Shown here one piece after another: positions 3,481 through 59,674 of a DNA stretch of 64,000 bases (the stretch's first letter is position 1; each line of letters begins with the position of its first letter). This DNA is from Chitinophagales bacterium. GTDB lineage: Bacteria; Bacteroidota; Bacteroidia; Chitinophagales; Chitinophagaceae. Position numbers and translations under genes: made by a program. Under the pieces are notes generated by a model, which saw only the letters and a list, made by a program, of their open reading frames with translations, was not told where the DNA came from and made no database searches. The DNA lies in the NCBI GenBank assembly GCA_026936105.1, contig JAIXKI010000002.1, positions 325,556 through 389,555 of the forward strand, in the 5' to 3' direction.

Positions 3481-5643
3481 ATGTCTGTAATTCAGAAGAT
3501 CAGGGATAAATATGCTCGCATATCTGTGATATTGATTTCTATAGCAATGATCGGCTTTATATTGATAGATTATATTTCAGGAAAGGGCAGCGGCCTATTC
3601 AGTGGCAACACCACCACAATCGGTGTTGTGAACGGGGATAAGATCAATGCCGAAGAATTCCGGATAAAAGTAAAAGAGCAGGAAGATTTTGAACAGCAGA
3701 ATCCGCAGCAGTTTGGACAAAGGGATTTGGGTCAAATAGTTGACGCTGTGTGGAACCGTGAAGTAAGCCAGATATTATTAAATAATGTGGTTGGAAAACT
3801 GGGAATGCAGATTGGAACTAAAGAGCTGAACGACCTGATGTTTGGCGCCAACCCACCCGAAGACATTAAAAGACTGGGAACTGACCCCCAAACCGGTATT
3901 TATAATAGCGCTCTGGCAATTCAACAAATTAACGCTATTAAAAAGAACGGAACAGCAGAGGATAAAATCAGATTGAATGAATTTATCAACCAGCTGGAAG
4001 TTCAACGCTTTTTGGATAAGTACAATTCATTATTGGCCAACAGTACCAATTTTCCAAAATGGTTTTTAGAAAAACAAAATACCGATAATAGTTTACTGGC
4101 AAAGGTTTCCCTGGTAAGGGTTCCTTATACGGACACCATGTTTGTTGACAGCACCATTGTTATCAGCAATTCAGAAATTGCAGACTATATCAAGCAACAC
4201 AAAAATGATTTTAAGCAAAAGGAAAGCCGGAGCATTGAGTATGTAGCATTCAATGCCTCGCCAAGTTCGGCAGACACTGCAGCAATCAGAGAACAGGTTG
4301 CCGCTCTGAAACCTGCATTTGACACCATCACGGACGAACATTCTTTTCTTGCCGCCAACGGAAGTGTGATTCCATATTTTGATGGCTATGTGCCACAGAG
4401 TAAAATGCAAATGCCTAATAAAGGCGAGATTATAAGCCTGCCTAAAAACGGGGTTTTTGGCCCCTATGAAGATGGGTCAAGTTTTGTTTTGGCCAAGATG
4501 GTTGATACGAAAGTTTTGCCTGATTCTGTAAGATGCCGCCATATACTCATTGGCACAGTAAATCCTCAGACCGGCCAGGCGATTATGGATGATTCCGTTG
4601 CGCACAGAAGAGCAGATAGTATTGCATTGGCCATAAAGAACGGAGCTAATTTCGATACACTGGAGACAAAATTCTCCACTGATCTTGCCGCCCATGCAGA
4701 CAAAGGCGTGATGACCTTCTCTTCTGTAGATATACAAGGAGAAAATTTTGCCAAAGAGTTTGGACAATTTATTTTATTTGATGGTAAGCCGGGAGATAAG
4801 AAAGTGGTGAAGACCTCATTTGGCTGGCATTATATTGAGATACTCAAGTTTATTAATCCGGAGCCGCAATATAAGGTAGCTTATATGGCCAAGGAGATTG
4901 TTCCTAGCATAGAGACGGATAATAATGCCAACAACCTTGCTACACAATTTGCCGGAAACAGCAGGGACCTGAAATCTTTTGAAGCGAATTATGAAAAAGA
5001 CCTGCAACCGAAAGGAATCAACAAGTTTACAGCCAACAATATTGACCCCAACGCATATAACATTAACGGCATAAACGGAACTGACCGGCAGTTCATAAGA
5101 GATATTTATGATGCAAAACTCGGCGATGTGCTGGAGCCTGAAAGAATAGGAGACCAATATATCGTTGCTGTGCTAACAGAGATCAACGAAGAGGGTACAC
5201 AAAGTCCCGAACAGGCAAGGCTACGGGTGGAACCGATCTTAAGGAACAGAAAGAAAGCAGAGATTTTCAAACAAAAACTCGGACCCATTACCACTCTGGA
5301 AGCGGCAGCAGATAAACTCAAAGCAACGATTGAAACAATTGATAGTCTGCGAATGCAACCCGGCCAGACTGTTTCTATTTCCGGGCATGATCCCAGGGTA
5401 ATAGGAGCTGCTTTTAATCCTGCCAATAATGGAAAGGTGGTTCCTGTTCCTCTTGCCGGTATCTATGGAATTTATATAGAGAGGGTTGATAATGTAACGG
5501 CTACGGCAGTTGAAAACGCTGATATTTCAGCACGCCGTCAGTCGCTTTATCAAAATGCATTACAAATGGCCAGGTTCTCAGATCCTCTGGTTCCATTGCG
5601 CAATGCAGCGAAAATAAAAGATAATCGGTCTAAGTTTTATTAA
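3481..5643 (+). CDS. SurA/PpiD-type periplasmic peptidyl-prolyl isomerase
   Basis: A 720-residue membrane-anchored folding factor. A short basic N-terminus is followed by one transmembrane helix (about residues 14-33, ISVILISIAMIGFILIDYI), then a SurA_N-like chaperone region, and a parvulin (PpiC-type) domain at about 350-457 with RHILIGT and GWHYIEILKF as the first and last strands. The long C-terminal region returns to chaperone-like helices. Homologues of this size and layout (PpiD-like) act on the periplasmic face of the inner membrane during outer-membrane protein folding. The gene is monocistronic, with an AT-rich region upstream and a strong hairpin terminator downstream. Confidence 0.9.
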   Translation: MSVIQKIRDKYARISVILISIAMIGFILIDYISGKGSGLFSGNTTTIGVVNGDKINAEEFRIKVKEQEDFEQQNPQQFGQRDLGQIVDAVWNREVSQILLNNVVGKLGMQIGTKELNDLMFGANPPEDIKRLGTDPQTGIYNSALAIQQINAIKKNGTAEDKIRLNEFINQLEVQRFLDKYNSLLANSTNFPKWFLEKQNTDNSLLAKVSLVRVPYTDTMFVDSTIVISNSEIADYIKQHKNDFKQKESRSIEYVAFNASPSSADTAAIREQVAALKPAFDTITDEHSFLAANGSVIPYFDGYVPQSKMQMPNKGEIISLPKNGVFGPYEDGSSFVLAKMVDTKVLPDSVRCRHILIGTVNPQTGQAIMDDSVAHRRADSIALAIKNGANFDTLETKFSTDLAAHADKGVMTFSSVDIQGENFAKEFGQFILFDGKPGDKKVVKTSFGWHYIEILKFINPEPQYKVAYMAKEIVPSIETDNNANNLATQFAGNSRDLKSFEANYEKDLQPKGINKFTANNIDPNAYNINGINGTDRQFIRDIYDAKLGDVLEPERIGDQYIVAVLTEINEEGTQSPEQARLRVEPILRNRKKAEIFKQKLGPITTLEAAADKLKATIETIDSLRMQPGQTVSISGHDPRVIGAAFNPANNGKVVPVPLAGIYGIYIERVDNVTATAVENADISARRQSLYQNALQMARFSDPLVPLRNAAKIKDNRSKFY

Positions 5644-5746: not shown

Positions 5747-6862
5747 CTAAAACCATCCTCTTTTTTTAAAGAACCACAGCATCCACACCGGGATGAACAG
5801 CATCATTCCTACCGCAATAAAAAACCCGTATGGACTGTGGAGCCAGGGAATATTCTGAAAGTTCATTCCGAAAATCCCACCAATCACAGTGGCAGGAGCC
5901 AGGAGGCAGGTTACTATCGCCATCACCTTCATTACCTCATTCAGCTTCAGATTTACATTGTTAATGTACAGATCGTGCATATTGATCATCATATCACGAT
6001 AGTTTTCGGTAAGATCATTGGCCTGAACGATATGATCATAAACGTCTTTAAAATATTTGGTAGTGTTATCGTCCAGCAGCTCACTGTCGTTTCGTACAAA
6101 ACCGTTGACCAGTTCTCTTACCGGGGAAATATTTCTTTTTAAAATAATCAGCTCTTTTCTCAGTTGGTTGATATGCCCCAGCGTGATCTTGTTGCTGCTG
6201 TGCACCACCTCTTCTTCCAGGGCCTCAACACGGTCACCAAGCTGCTCCATCACCAGGAAATAATTATCCACGATCAGGTCGAGCATGGTGTAACACAGAT
6301 AATCGGCGCCACGCTGCCTGATACGGCTGTTGTTCATACGCAGCCGTTCTCTTATGGTATTGAAGACGTCCCTGGTGGCATCCTCCTGGAAGCTGATCAC
6401 ATAATTTTTTCCCAGTACGATACTGATCTGCTCCTGTTCTACGGTTTGATCGTTTTTATTATAGTAAAGCATGTTCAAGAGGCAAAACAGGTGATTATCC
6501 ACTTCGTCCATCTTGGGCCGTTGGTTTTGACTAAGGATATCTTCGGCTACGAGCGGATGGATGTCAAAATAATTACAGACCCGATCCACATCTGACTTTC
6601 TGAGACCGTCAATGTTGATCCAGCTGATGCGTTTACTGTCCTTGTAAGGCAAGCAACCCGAAATGTCAGAAAATTTTTTTTCTTCCACGGTTTCACTGTC
6701 ATAATCAAATACGAGTACAGAAACCGTTGCTGCTTCTTCTCTTTTGGGGGCAATGGTGGGGTTTACCGAAAGGATCTCTTTGGTTCGCTGAGTGGCAAAT
6801 AAACCGGACGGATACAGGTACCTGAGATATTTTTGGGGTTTTATTTTTTTTACATTTACCAT
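5747..6862 (-). CDS. corA: CorA-family Mg2+/Co2+ transporter
   Basis: A 371-residue CorA channel for divalent cations in the inner membrane. The large N-terminal cytoplasmic domain ends in a long helix (about 200-310). Two transmembrane helices follow, and the signature selectivity motif GMN is at residues 332-334 in IGGIFGMNFQNIP, just after the first helix. The short positively charged tail is FKKRGWF. Length and layout are those of the family. The gene stands alone and converges on the PPIase terminator. Mg2+ is the usual physiological substrate; Co2+ and Ni2+ are also carried by family members. Confidence 0.95.
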   Translation of the reverse strand: MVNVKKIKPQKYLRYLYPSGLFATQRTKEILSVNPTIAPKREEAATVSVLVFDYDSETVEEKKFSDISGCLPYKDSKRISWINIDGLRKSDVDRVCNYFDIHPLVAEDILSQNQRPKMDEVDNHLFCLLNMLYYNKNDQTVEQEQISIVLGKNYVISFQEDATRDVFNTIRERLRMNNSRIRQRGADYLCYTMLDLIVDNYFLVMEQLGDRVEALEEEVVHSSNKITLGHINQLRKELIILKRNISPVRELVNGFVRNDSELLDDNTTKYFKDVYDHIVQANDLTENYRDMMINMHDLYINNVNLKLNEVMKVMAIVTCLLAPATVIGGIFGMNFQNIPWLHSPYGFFIAVGMMLFIPVWMLWFFKKRGWF

Positions 6863-54614: not shown

Positions 54615-55058
54615 TCACTCTTTGGTCTCAACAACTTTGCCGCAACTTAACATGGAAGAACCATAGTACGGGTTCTCGATCTTCTTTTCTTTGCTAAGCC
54701 AGTATCCTTTTGCCATCGGGCAATATTGATAGTACAAAGGCTGGCCTACTTTGTCTGCGTTTTTTACAACCGACCACATAACCGTGGAAACATTATTGAA
54801 AGCATCTCTCTGTCCTTTCAGGTCGGAAGCTTTATTCAATGCATCAGCAGCTTTTAAAAGATCAGCTTTCTGAGAGAAATCTTTTTCCTTGTTTACGGCT
54901 TGGTAAAAAGTTTTAATGGCCTCTGTGGAGGTTTTAACATCGCTGTTCACCAATGCATTTTTTACACTGAGATAATCCGTGACCAGATCTTCTGTTTTCT
55001 GGGAAAATACCGGATAAGCAAACAGCATGAGGGCAAAGGCTAATAGAGTCTTTTTCAT
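54615..55058 (-). CDS. DUF3347-domain exported protein
   Basis: A 147-residue exported protein with a signal peptide (MKKTLLAFALMLFAYPVFSQ). The conserved DUF3347 residues include YLSVKNALVNSD and YYQYCPMAKGYW, with cysteines at both ends of the last third (YYQYCP and MLSCGKV). DUF3347 is common near copper and CusB/HMA genes and may bind metal. It is the most downstream gene of the copper cluster (12-bp gap after HMA). Confidence 0.82.
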   Translation of the reverse strand: MKKTLLAFALMLFAYPVFSQKTEDLVTDYLSVKNALVNSDVKTSTEAIKTFYQAVNKEKDFSQKADLLKAADALNKASDLKGQRDAFNNVSTVMWSVVKNADKVGQPLYYQYCPMAKGYWLSKEKKIENPYYGSSMLSCGKVVETKE

Positions 55059-55070
55059 TCGAGTGTTGAT

Positions 55071-55298
55071 TTAATTGTTTAATGATTCGATTTTATAACC
55101 TGCTTTCTGAACGGTGTCCATGATCTGTTTTTCAGAGATTCCATCAGATTTGACGGTAAGGATCTTGTCTTTGTTGCTTGTGTCCACATTCCATTCATCA
55201 ATGCCCTGTACCTTGTCCAGGTAAGGCTTGACGGTCGCCACGCAGCCGCTGCAATTTATGTTTGTTTTAAATTGAAAAACCTGATTTTTATTTTCCAT
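55071..55298 (-). CDS. HMA-domain copper chaperone-like protein
   Basis: A 75-residue single heavy-metal-associated (CopZ-type) domain with the motif NCSGC (C-x-x-C, about residue 14-18) and an intact beta-alpha-beta layout. It would shuttle Cu(I) to the CopA ATPase. It is 12 bp upstream of DUF3347. CopA lies 1.9 kb away on the same strand, with an ATPase gene and a four-helix-bundle element inserted between. Confidence 0.85.
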   Translation of the reverse strand: MENKNQVFQFKTNINCSGCVATVKPYLDKVQGIDEWNVDTSNKDKILTVKSDGISEKQIMDTVQKAGYKIESLNN

Positions 55299-55477
55299 AA
55301 CAAATAATTTTGAACTACAAAGTTGCAATATTAAAATTAAAAGGTTGTTACACTATTTCAGGTTCGATTTGTGAAATTTACAGTTTGATGCAAAGATGAT
55401 TGGATAGAAATCAGCAATAACAGGCAGATTCAAAATTCCTTTTATTATTTCACATAACATTTCTTCTTATCGATGTT

Positions 55478-56605
55478 TTAACTTTCAAACATTCCGACAA
55501 AATCCCTGAAATTTTCTTTCGTAATAATCTTTACCTCAGCTTTATATGTTTTCACAAAATCAGCCGGAATATTTGTCTTTGCTTTAGGATTCCATTTGAA
55601 TTCAAAACCTGTAATTTTTCCGTTTGTTTCTTCTACATAATCTATTTCCTGTTGTTGTTTTGTTCTCCAGAAATATTTGTTGCAATAATAACTGTGATAA
55701 TGATTACGCTTGAGCCTTTCCGTCATTAAGGAATTTTCCCACAATGCCCCAATATCATTTCTTAAAGTTATAGGATTAAAATTTTGTATAATGGTATTGC
55801 GTACACCATTATCATAAAAATAAATTTTACGGTTTGTTTTAATTTCATTGCGAAGGTTGCGGCTAAACGATGTGATGGGATAAACAATATAAGACAATTC
55901 CAATAAACGTATATAGTTTGCAACCGTATTTTTATCTATCCCGGTTAATTGTGCGATTTCATTAAAGCTGACTTCACTACCTATCTGAAATGCCAATGCC
56001 TGCAAAACTTTTTCTAGAATTTCCGGTTTTCTGATGCCGGCAAAAGACAAGATGTCTTTAAATAAATAGCTCTGGGTAAGCTCGTTTAGAATAGCTCGTT
56101 CTTCTCCTCTGTTATTGATTACATCCGGATAAAAACCATAAATCAACCGGTGATTCAAATCTCTTGAAGCATCTAAATAACCTACTGAATTTTCATATTC
56201 CTCATAAGAAATAGGGAAAAGGTTGTACTCAATTTTGCGCCCTGTCAATGGCTCATTGGTTTTATTGCTTAATTGAAAAGAAGAAGAGCCACTCATGATT
56301 AATTGTACAGTTTTAAATTGGTCGTGAATGATTTTTGCAGTTAAACCAATATTTTCAATACGTTGTGCTTCATCAATAAAAATAATTTTATTCTTTCCAA
56401 TGATTGCACTTAATTCCCTGGTGTTCGGATGATGGAGACGCTCCCTTACGAGTGGATCATCACCATTCAAAAACAGATATTTTTTACCTTCCAGCAATTC
56501 CCGGATTAGCGTTGTTTTACCCACCTGTCTTGCCCCGGTAAGGATGATCGTTTTTTGTTTAAATATCTTTCCGGAAAGCCTGGATTTTAGAATACGTTCT
56601 ATCAT
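55478..56605 (-). CDS. AAA+ ATPase with DUF4143 domain
   Basis: A 375-residue ATPase of the AAA+/STAND-related group in Bacteroidota. The Walker A motif is GARQVGKTTLIREL, Walker B is KIIFIDEAQRI, and the C-terminal DUF4143 portion has a nuclease-like EIDYVEETNGKITGFEFKW. A winged-helix-like stretch (NEIAQLTGIDKNTVANYIRLLEL) suggests DNA binding. Function is unknown; such genes are scattered and often solitary, suggesting mobility or a small selfish or defence role (speculative). Four alternating 13-nt repeats lie upstream. The ATG at 56605 is used. Confidence 0.85.
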   Translation of the reverse strand: MIERILKSRLSGKIFKQKTIILTGARQVGKTTLIRELLEGKKYLFLNGDDPLVRERLHHPNTRELSAIIGKNKIIFIDEAQRIENIGLTAKIIHDQFKTVQLIMSGSSSFQLSNKTNEPLTGRKIEYNLFPISYEEYENSVGYLDASRDLNHRLIYGFYPDVINNRGEERAILNELTQSYLFKDILSFAGIRKPEILEKVLQALAFQIGSEVSFNEIAQLTGIDKNTVANYIRLLELSYIVYPITSFSRNLRNEIKTNRKIYFYDNGVRNTIIQNFNPITLRNDIGALWENSLMTERLKRNHYHSYYCNKYFWRTKQQQEIDYVEETNGKITGFEFKWNPKAKTNIPADFVKTYKAEVKIITKENFRDFVGMFES

Positions 56606-56617
56606 GAACTTTATCTT

Positions 56618-56679
56618 ATTCACCAAAAGTAAAGCTTTTTGGTGAATATATTCACTAAAAGTTACTCTTTTCTGTGAAT
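56618..56679. promoter_or_regulatory. Four alternating 13-nt repeats upstream of the DUF4143 ATPase gene
   Basis: Copies of ATTCACCAAAAGT: plus at 56618-56630, minus at 56635-56647, plus at 56650-56662 (ATTCACTAAAAGT), minus at 56667-56679 (with two mismatches). Start-to-start spacing is 17, 15 and 17 bp. They form two head-to-head inverted pairs in the promoter of the ATPase gene. Likely operator sites for an unidentified regulator, perhaps the ATPase itself. Confidence 0.6.
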
Positions 56680-56696
56680 GATAGAATTGGGGTTAA

Positions 56697-56720
56697 GAGT
56701 TATGAATTATGAGTGATGAG
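56697..56720. repeat. Left terminal inverted repeat of the four-helix-bundle unit
   Basis: Starts GAGTTATGAATTATGAGTGA and agrees at 20 of 24 positions with the reverse complement of 57148-57171. Confidence 0.6.
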
Positions 56721-56733
56721 TTCAATCCTATAA

Positions 56734-57101
56734 TTACTTTTTATTTTTATTGATATTGTTTTTAGTGGTAAGTATAGCACTGCGAAGCATTTTTAAAAGT
56801 GATGTTGCTTCTTCATTAATATTTTCGAATTCTTCTTGTGTTAAATATTTTGTTTGATACAATAGTTCAAGCAATAAATTGTTTCATCACATTCTTTTTG
56901 CGCAATACCTAATTTATGAATAAAGTCGGTTTTGCTTTCTGCATTTTGAGCTTCTCTAATCAATGCCCCAACAGCCGTACCACATCTCAGCAATTGTTTA
57001 CTTATTACAAATTCATGTTGATCGGTTTTCAATTGTTTATAAAGATTTATAATGCGAATAGCAAAAGCAAAGCTCTTTTCTTTTAAAATACTATTTCCCA
57101 T
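56734..57101 (-). pseudogene. Four-helix-bundle (S23/IVP-type) protein, frameshifted
   Basis: The N-terminal 80-odd residues (MGNSILKEKSFAFAIRIINLY..., LLRCGTAVGALIREAQNAESK, QKECDETIYC) are those of the four-helix-bundle/23S rRNA-intervening-sequence protein family. A stop follows soon after TIY in that frame, but the next frame continues with LELLYQTKYLTQEEFENINEEATSLLKML and on, the usual end of the family, to a stop at 56734. Loss of one G (TATTG[G]CTT) explains the break. Full length would be about 121 residues. Members are also found next to reverse transcriptases (Avd). The gene lies within inverted repeats. Confidence 0.8.
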
Positions 57102-57147
57102 AATCTGCTATTTGATTACAATTTAAAAACAAATTCTCAATAAACCA

Positions 57148-57171
57148 TTCATAACCCATAACTCATAACTC
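57148..57171. repeat. Right terminal inverted repeat of the four-helix-bundle unit
   Basis: Contains CCATAACTCATAACTC; its reverse complement agrees at 20 of 24 positions with 56697-56720. Beyond it lies CATCCCTCATCAC and then the copA stop. Confidence 0.6.
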
Positions 57172-57182
57172 ATCCCTCATCA

Positions 57183-59594
57183 CTACCTAAGTTTCAATCT
57201 CAAACTATTCCCCACCACACTTACGCTGCTCAATGCCATTGCAGCACCGGCAATCATTGGGTTTAATAAAAAGCCATTGATTGGATAAAGGATGCCCGCT
57301 GCTATGGGTATGCCCACTACGTTGTAGATAAATGCCCAAAACAAATTTTGTTTGATAGTGGCTACGGTTTGTTTAGAGAGTGAAATGGCTTGTGGAATTT
57401 TTGTTAAGTCTGAAGAGATGATAGTCATCTTCGCAACATCCATTGCAATATCACTGCCCTTGCCCATGGCGATACTCACATCAGCCGTCGCCAATGCGGT
57501 ACTGTCATTGATGCCATCACCCACCATGGCAACCACTTTGCCTTGCTGTTGTAACTGCTGAATAAACTCCGCTTTCTGATGCGGCAACATATCTGCTTTG
57601 AAATTTTTTATGCCCGCCTGTGTTGCGATGGCTGTTGCCGTAGCTGCATTATCACCGGTGAGCATATACAATTCTATACCCATCTCCTGCAACTGTTGAA
57701 TAGCTGTTGCAGATGATTCTTTTACTTTATCCTCAATAGCAATTACCGATAAAGTTTTTTTACTGTCGGCAAACCAGATAACAGTTTTGGAAGCTGCACT
57801 CCAGCCATCAGCTTGTTGCTGCAGTTCAGTACAACCCATGATATGATTTTCCAATAACAATTTTTGGTTGCCTATATAGTATGTTTCTCCCTGATACATT
57901 GCTTGAACTCCTTTACCCGTAATGCTTTCAAAGGAAGATAAAGCAACACCGTTGTTGTTTTTAAAATAACTCACTACTGCTGCTGCCAATGGATGTTCGG
58001 ATTGCCTTTCCATACTCACTAAAATTTGCTGGGTACTGTCATCATCATTCAACCATTTGATACCGGTAACCTGTGGTTTGCCTTCAGTGATGGTACCAGT
58101 TTTGTCCAACACCACTGCATTCACTTTTTTTGCCAGTTCCAGGCTTTCCGCATCTTTGATCAGGATCCCTTTTTCAGCTCCTTTGCCTACGCCGACCATT
58201 ATTGCAGTTGGCGTGGCCAATCCCAAAGCGCAGGGACAGGCGATCACCAATACGGAAACTGCGGCCAGTAATCCATGAACCAAATTGTTGTCGCCACCTA
58301 AGATCATCCATAAAATAAAAGTGAGAACAGCAATGCTGATGACCAAGGGTACAAAGATCGCAGCCACTTTATCTACCAGTTTTTGAACAGGAGCCTTGCT
58401 TCCCTGCGCATCCTGCACCATTTTGATGATATGAGCCAGCATAGTATCCTTTCCGACTTTCAATGCTTTGTATTGAAAACTTCCTTTCTGGTTGATGGTG
58501 CCGGCAAAAACTTTTTCATTTTCTTTTTTCAGAACAGGAACAGGCTCGCCGGTAAGCATGCTTTCATCCACATAAGAGTTACCTGAAATAACCAGGCCAT
58601 CCACGGCAATTTTTTCTCCTGGCTTTGCCAGCAGGGTATCACCTTCCACAACCTCTTCAATGGCAATTTGCTTTTCCATTCCATCCGGCTGAACGGCCGT
58701 TACTGTTTTGGGCTGAAGGCCCATCAGTTTTTTTATTGCTGCCGAAGTATTCCCTTTTGCTTTTTCTTCCAGCATTTTTCCGAGAAGTATGAAGGCGATA
58801 ACCACTGCTGCCGCTTCAAAGTATACATGAACTTCCAGCCCTCTTTTTAACCAAAACTGCGGAAACAGCATGTTGAATACACTAAACAGGTAAGCAATGC
58901 CGGTGCTCAGCGCCACCAGTGTATCCATATTGGCAGAGCGATGTTTTGCCTGTTTCCATGCATTGATAAAAAAATCTTTACCGAACCATAACACTACCGG
59001 AGTGGCAAAAGCCCACATGATGAAATTGGAATAAGGAAGGTCCATAAAAAACATTCCAATGATAAACACCGGAATGGAAAGAATAATGGACCAGATGGTC
59101 TTTGTTTTCAAATCATTGAATTTCTCTTTGTGCAGTGATTCCAGTGAATCCTGTTGTTTGCTTTCATCCTCAATAAGCAGATCGTATCCGATAGACTGCA
59201 CTGCTTTTTGCAAAGCCTGAGGTCCGGTCATGTTAGGAAGATATTCCACGGAGAGCAGGGCATTCGCATAGTTCACCGATGCATTCACTACGCCTTCTGC
59301 TGATTTAACGATACTTTCTGCACTGACTGCACAGGATGCGCAGGTCATATTCAGAACAGGAAAAGTTCTTTTGACGGTAGTTACTCCATAGCCAAGATCT
59401 TTTATTATTTTAACTGCGTCTGCCACCACTTCATTATCATCCACCGTAATGACAGCCCTGTTGTTGTTCAGTTCCACTTTATGGCTTTCAATACCTTTCA
59501 CCTGCGAGAGGCCTTTGTCCACTATCATGGCACAATGTTCACTGTCCACATCTTCAAGCGGGAGATAGATGGTATCATTGTTATTTCCTGTCAT
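57183..59594 (-). CDS. copA: Copper-translocating P-type ATPase
   Basis: An 803-residue P1B-type Cu(I) exporter. Two N-terminal HMA domains come first; the first has SEHC where C-x-x-C is expected, so one metal-binding Cys is missing, while the second has the intact MTCASC. Membrane segments follow with the CPC ion site ([14 protein letters not shown]), then the phosphorylation site DKTGT, HP motif (SEHPLAA), TGDN, and GDGINDS hinge. YN and MxxxS residues in the last helices ([18 protein letters not shown]) complete the copper path. The start is taken as ATG at 59594. The AraC-type regulator with N-terminal HMA lies upstream. Confidence 0.95.
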
Positions 59595-59674
59595 GGTCCC
59601 GGAATTTGATACCACGAAGTTCGCAATTTGTCCAACCGGGGCTGTTACGCTTTTTTAGAAATGATTTGTAAGAT

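Follow-up and report, generated by a model that had tools for sequence, protein, structure and literature searches.

A four-helix-bundle gene between inverted heptamer arrays in Bacteroidota: an apparent transposase-less mobile element related to rRNA intervening sequences

The stretch of Chitinophagales DNA analysed here (64,000 nucleotides; the window) carries, directly behind copA, a short unit in which a gene for a four-helix-bundle (4HB) protein of the IVP/S23p family (PF05635) is bracketed by inverted repeats. What kind of unit is this, and does it recur around other genes of the family? The initial annotation had described 24-nt inverted repeats (20/24 matches), a gene broken by a single base, and a compact insert with no transposase, and this description was borne out with one correction. 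The inverted repeats at 56697-56719 and 57149-57171 measured 23 nt, were 87% complementary (20/23) and had 429 nt between them; their inverted-repeat score of 20 was matched or bettered around ~1% of control genes. The ORF at 56841-57101 (minus strand) was identified by profile search as PF05635 23S_rRNA_IVP (70.5 bits versus a cut-off of 33.8, E 1.6e-19) and was also found in the whole-genome family search, which likewise read a stop codon inside the PF05635 match. This ORF is the N-terminal part of the gene (86 codons, then the stop); after a single-base frameshift the C-terminal part, recognised by homology, resumes in another frame at 56737-56885 (minus strand, start approximate) and extends to ~56737. 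The 4HB gene was the sole ORF between the arms, where no transposase was found; there were no tRNA features in or near the element, and no Rfam match at 55000-58000.

Both repeats proved to be parts of imperfect tandem arrays of a 7-nt word, GAGTTAT. The 5' arm (57144-57186, minus strand; inverted-repeat part 57149-57171) reads, in gene sense, TGATGAG-GGATGAG-TTATGAG-TTATGGG-TTATGAA. The 3' arm (56690-56722, minus strand; inverted-repeat part 56697-56719) carries this word as an inverted array, reading AACTCAT on the gene strand. A period-7 scanner found exactly two such arrays in the 64-kb window, and these were the two arms. The segment is probably a decaying copy of a widespread element of ~480 bp, made of one 4HB gene and two inverted heptamer arrays.

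The upstream neighbour, copA (57183-59615, minus strand), is co-oriented with the element. Its stop codon (57183-57185) is reached, overlapped and supplied by the right-hand arm in window coordinates, and the protein ends RLKLR* here versus RLKWKR* in element-free relatives. The same junction in two congeneric genomes (G002 and G003) was without the element, without its arms and without the downstream neighbour, an AAA_14/DUF4143 ATPase gene (55478-56626, minus strand), which suggests, from sequence comparison, a gain of the element in the lineage of the window. This ATPase gene does not accompany the element at other sites; both were gained at the one copA-HMA junction. The expectation of precise empty sites thus held in part. 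The copA junction is empty in two relatives, but the insert there also takes in the ATPase gene, which limits the claim of precision, and a base-precise site with a target duplication was not found. In another genus, G156 lacked the element and its arms at a site that is filled in four genomes (G110, G094, G121 and G145), which is probably a loss and not a gain; a second element was also missing from G156, and its 3' arm there now forms the N-terminus of the next gene. The junctions of empty sites were diverged or complex, and neither a base-precise filled/empty pair nor a target duplication was established. Many elements are old and have stayed where they were in several genera, as in two orthologous sets that retain their word (L001/L029/L033/L044 and L015/L016/L018/L031), so mobility is slow.

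The genome of the window contained 14 matches to PF05635, most of them with inverted low-complexity arms, each of a different sequence. For each 4HB gene, an arm score was taken from the best-scoring local inverted alignment of its two 220-nt flanks. Across the order (104 loci in 61 genomes) the mean score was 18.3, versus 10.3 for swapped arms and 10.6 at 206 control genes, and scores of at least 15 were reached by 73% of the 4HB loci, versus 4% of swapped pairs and 5% of control genes. In a set of 212 loci drawn from the whole phylum Bacteroidota and named GTDB genomes, the corresponding values were 67%, 5.5% and 7.4% (392 control genes). On cyanobacterial plasmids, 12 of 13 4HB loci likewise scored at least 15. 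The heptamer period was general: within arms, identity was 0.585 at lag 7 and 0.569 at lag 14, versus 0.31 in shuffled arms, and the preferred lag was 7 in 58 of 68 elements and 8 in eight. Within 300 bp of a 4HB gene, period-7 arrays were 17 times denser than elsewhere, while periods 9-13 showed little or no enrichment. Matched inverted heptamer arms are thus the rule around 4HB genes in Bacteroidota and on cyanobacterial plasmids, and a 4HB gene with such arms almost certainly defines a class of elements. The initial annotation had proposed searching for other 4HB genes with the same 24-nt ends. The same anatomy was found at most 4HB genes in Bacteroidota; the fixed 24-nt end was discarded as a search key, since each element has a heptamer word of its own, which varies with the protein subfamily. 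In one orthologous element (L240 in G121, ~5115-5200, reverse strand) the 3' arm has grown to ~8 near-perfect CTGAACTC octamers and the 5' arm is still short. A candidate solo array 15.7 kb into the same locus (L240, 15728-15796) was rejected, being an unrelated palindrome, CATCCTGAACTCGCTTCAGGAT; this palindrome belongs to a different repeat family dispersed throughout the genus.

Each element has a private word, common to its two arms. Word similarity was compared with protein identity after removal of pairs with homologous flanks, and rose from 0.14 (<30% identity) through 0.27 (50-55%) and 0.40 (60-70%) to 0.55 (>70%). With pairs binned by identity, none of 1000 permutations reached the similarity observed at ≥50% protein identity. 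Taken over all pairs, a simple Mantel rank correlation (0.038) fell short of significance, since at protein identities below ~50% the words are too diverged to be matched; the signal emerges when the pairs are binned and permuted. An AGCY core was present in 67% of the arms in one subfamily (alignment A1, scanned in GTDB genomes) versus 8% of others, and AGC-type heptamers were also found in cyanobacterial relatives (L338, L342) at 40-43% protein identity. The word of the window, GAGTTAT, recurred in another family of the order (G048), on both sides of a 4HB gene of the same subfamily lying between restriction-type genes. The word therefore accompanies its protein subfamily across unrelated sites and genomes, even between phyla, and the arms belong to the element. 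Since word similarity rises with protein identity at unlinked sites, the word travels with the protein, and it is likely that each 4HB protein recognises its own word as a putative binding site.

Elements were ~480 bp long (10th-90th percentile 425-584) and tightly fitted between host genes: at the median, the 5' arm overlapped the last 2 nt of the upstream gene, and 6 nt separated the 3' arm from the start codon that followed. Co-orientation with both neighbours was observed for 84% of elements versus 47% of control triples (p=3e-16), and between co-oriented host genes the element ran in the same direction in 156 cases and in the opposite direction in 8. Since 7 is not divisible by 3, an array of heptamers containing a stop codon would supply stops in every frame, which would fit insertion at gene ends. 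On cyanobacterial plasmids, three 4HB elements (L338, L345 and L348) lay among CRISPR-Cas genes, with cas6 and cas4 or cas10 and cmr3 as neighbours, and were co-oriented with them.

Such a strong sense bias within operons would suit an intervening sequence acting at the RNA level, that is, a silent unit of the host mRNA that spreads via an RNA intermediate and whose arms form a stem cleaved by a nuclease such as RNase III. The 23S rRNA intervening sequences (IVSs) of Coxiella and Leptospira offer a precedent, sharing the protein family, a length of ~430-480 bp, terminal inverted repeats and sense orientation in a transcribed unit. The Coxiella IVS, a substrate of RNase III, holds an S23p ORF, 28-bp terminal inverted repeats and, immediately ahead of the start codon, three tandem GACAGAT heptamers, whose number varies between strains (PMC4990558). 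When tested against this arrangement, the window unit likewise had an S23p ORF between inverted repeats and heptamers upstream of the ORF. However, it lies between copA and the DUF4143 ATPase gene and not inside a 23S rRNA gene, and the elements described here differ from the ribosomal IVSs in forming up to ~16 kinds per genome, in their private words tracking the subfamily and in their gene-less derivatives. The arms themselves also speak against an RNA stem. Mismatches compatible with G-U pairing were not in excess on the sense strand (155 vs 172, p=0.38), position-wise pairing barely exceeded the level expected from the shared word (mean z 1.25, a value biased upward by the selection of arms), and Rfam held no family at the window element. 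Since a selected RNA stem gains no support from wobble asymmetry or from position-wise pairing, the arms are likelier to be binding sites. Spread at the RNA level is considered unlikely.

Words were also found dispersed away from 4HB genes, and in some genomes the word of one resident 4HB element gave 100-350 matches. The word of element L039, GGATGNN, had 356 matches in its own genome (G025) and 0-4 in 60 others. Of 20 loci fetched from G025, 17, some of them double, carried inverted pairs without a gene, with spacers of 5-240 nt, and the polarity of the gene-less pairs was always that of the full element. Several arrays distant from 4HB genes were likewise gene-less inverted pairs. AGCTNNN gave 158 matches in G023, where the 4HB gene of L311 has that word, and was amplified in G023, G025, G011, G003 and others. 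Amplification of TTAGGNN in G027 was predicted before the search, which returned 162 matches; gene-less inverted doublets of the gene-flanking repeat were found there in part. Other amplified words had no matching 4HB gene: ATGAG in G020 (both of its 4HB genes were checked) and G055, AGCT in G006, and a TTAGGA variant in G013 (149 matches), for which a matching gene was absent among the four of its six 4HB genes that were examined. When solo arrays were compared with 4HB words of the same genome, a comparison covering part of the 4HB genes, a clear match was seen for 4-5 of 23. Gene and amplification are strongly but not fully linked; lost or decayed 4HB genes could be the source of amplified words without a gene.

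These dispersed arrays also bear on the proposal that the 4HB protein is a resident autoregulator of the host, with the arrays as its operators and no mobility. Orthologous elements that stay at one site across genera with their word kept, and arrays that border start and stop codons, would be expected of such a regulator. The recurrence of one word and protein subfamily at unrelated sites and in other phyla, the empty sites, and hundreds of dispersed arrays, many of them gene-less inverted pairs, are not, and this reading is judged quite improbable. Already disfavoured, and the least credible, is that bacteria simply favour heptamer repeats, with 4HB genes merely among their locations and hairpins spreading by themselves, for although such repeats are commoner than expected in many bacteria (PMC4692102, PMC4679880) and no matching 4HB gene exists for some amplified words, period-7 arrays are concentrated 17-fold at 4HB genes, the two arms of one gene share a word not found at other genes of the same genome, and the word tracks the protein.

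The combination of amplified words and gene-less inverted pairs may, by analogy, represent a counterpart of REP/REPIN in which the protein is not a nuclease. RAYT genes lie beside inverted short repeats, with dispersed gene-less doublets and co-inheritance of protein and repeat (PMC3116915). The present elements share the gene beside inverted short repeats, as well as gene-less doublets in G025 and partly in G027, although not in the genome of the window. They differ in that the protein is a 4HB protein (PF05635) with no HUH/Y1 nuclease, and the repeat is an imperfect heptamer array and not a single palindrome. The lack of a transposase in the window unit also sets it apart from insertion sequences and MITEs. 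Avd, the accessory protein known from diversity-generating retroelements (DGRs), is a small nucleic-acid-linked helical bundle. The PF05635 structure 2GSC has been reported to be homologous to Avd 4DWL (PMC10053308); however, neither a reverse transcriptase, among the neighbouring genes read, nor a template/variable repeat was seen beside the window element, and heptamer arms are not a described feature of DGRs.

Dispersed heptamer arrays and inverted pairs similar to those found here have been described for GGGAATC in Xanthomonas, with 70 inverted pairs in X. campestris, and for GGGGA(C/T)T in Nostoc (PMC4692102). There the heptamers are treated as G-quadruplex repeats, and a link to a 4HB gene is not stated in the main text of that paper. 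X. campestris does encode an S23p-type protein, XCC0516 (PDB 2GSC). Intergenic heptamer arrays are also formed by TAACTGA in Beggiatoaceae, Cyanobacteria and some Bacteroidetes (PMC4679880), but these are direct repeats upstream of genes, with one word across many genomes, and a 4HB gene between inverted arms has not been reported for them. Accounts of IVP elements that lie between genes and bear heptamer arms were not found in the literature searched, whose coverage was incomplete.

Taken as recognition of the word by its own protein, the arms suggest a mechanism. Solved structures of relatives are 2GSC and 2RLD, and 2GSC is given as a homopentamer (Lin 2006, as cited in PMC4990558). A 4HB pentamer might bind the heptamer run of its own arms, perhaps with one heptamer per subunit, the target being single-stranded DNA or RNA of the arms. 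The protein would then bring both ends together and help the unit to be copied or inserted, and it would act in trans on gene-less pairs that carry its word. Copying could proceed via host replication or repair, or by a reverse transcriptase made elsewhere. We know of no catalytic domain in the PF05635 family, and the logic would be that of RAYT and REP/REPIN minus the nuclease. Judged from sequence, mobilisation of the elements by the 4HB protein is put forward tentatively. More speculative is a wider reading, in which IVP/S23p proteins would be word-specific, non-catalytic mobilisers that define a transposase-less superclass in Bacteroidota, Cyanobacteria and Pseudomonadota. Ribosomal IVSs would be the members residing in rRNA, and many heptamer repeats that lack an explanation would be gene-less derivatives.

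The elements appear to represent a class of mobile elements without a transposase that has so far gone unrecognised and is related to rRNA IVSs. What ribosomal IVSs and S23p proteins do, and where they come from, has been an open question since about 1990, and for the heptamer repeats seen in many genomes no cause has been given; a family of proteins with private words joins both puzzles. Its protein-word pairs, which number in the thousands, may hold a recognition code, and the elements may be mobile while working without a nuclease of their own. The copy in the window is probably inert, because its protein is lost and its word is unamplified in its own genome: ATGAGNN occurred once there, and had 221 matches in G048.

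In G023 (L293, G023:C7:40300-42000, at ~800-900) a gene-less inverted pair of AGCT heptamers lies, apparently in frame, within a cysteinyl-tRNA synthetase-like gene, so such hairpins can become protein. In G025 (L128; 2049-2265, ~3947-4333 and 6292-6354) the word of a 4HB gene, GTGAGAC, recurs in a hairpin 1.7 kb upstream and, past the following recQ-like gene, in an inverted array; the arrangement looks as though host genes had been captured or spanned by the unit.
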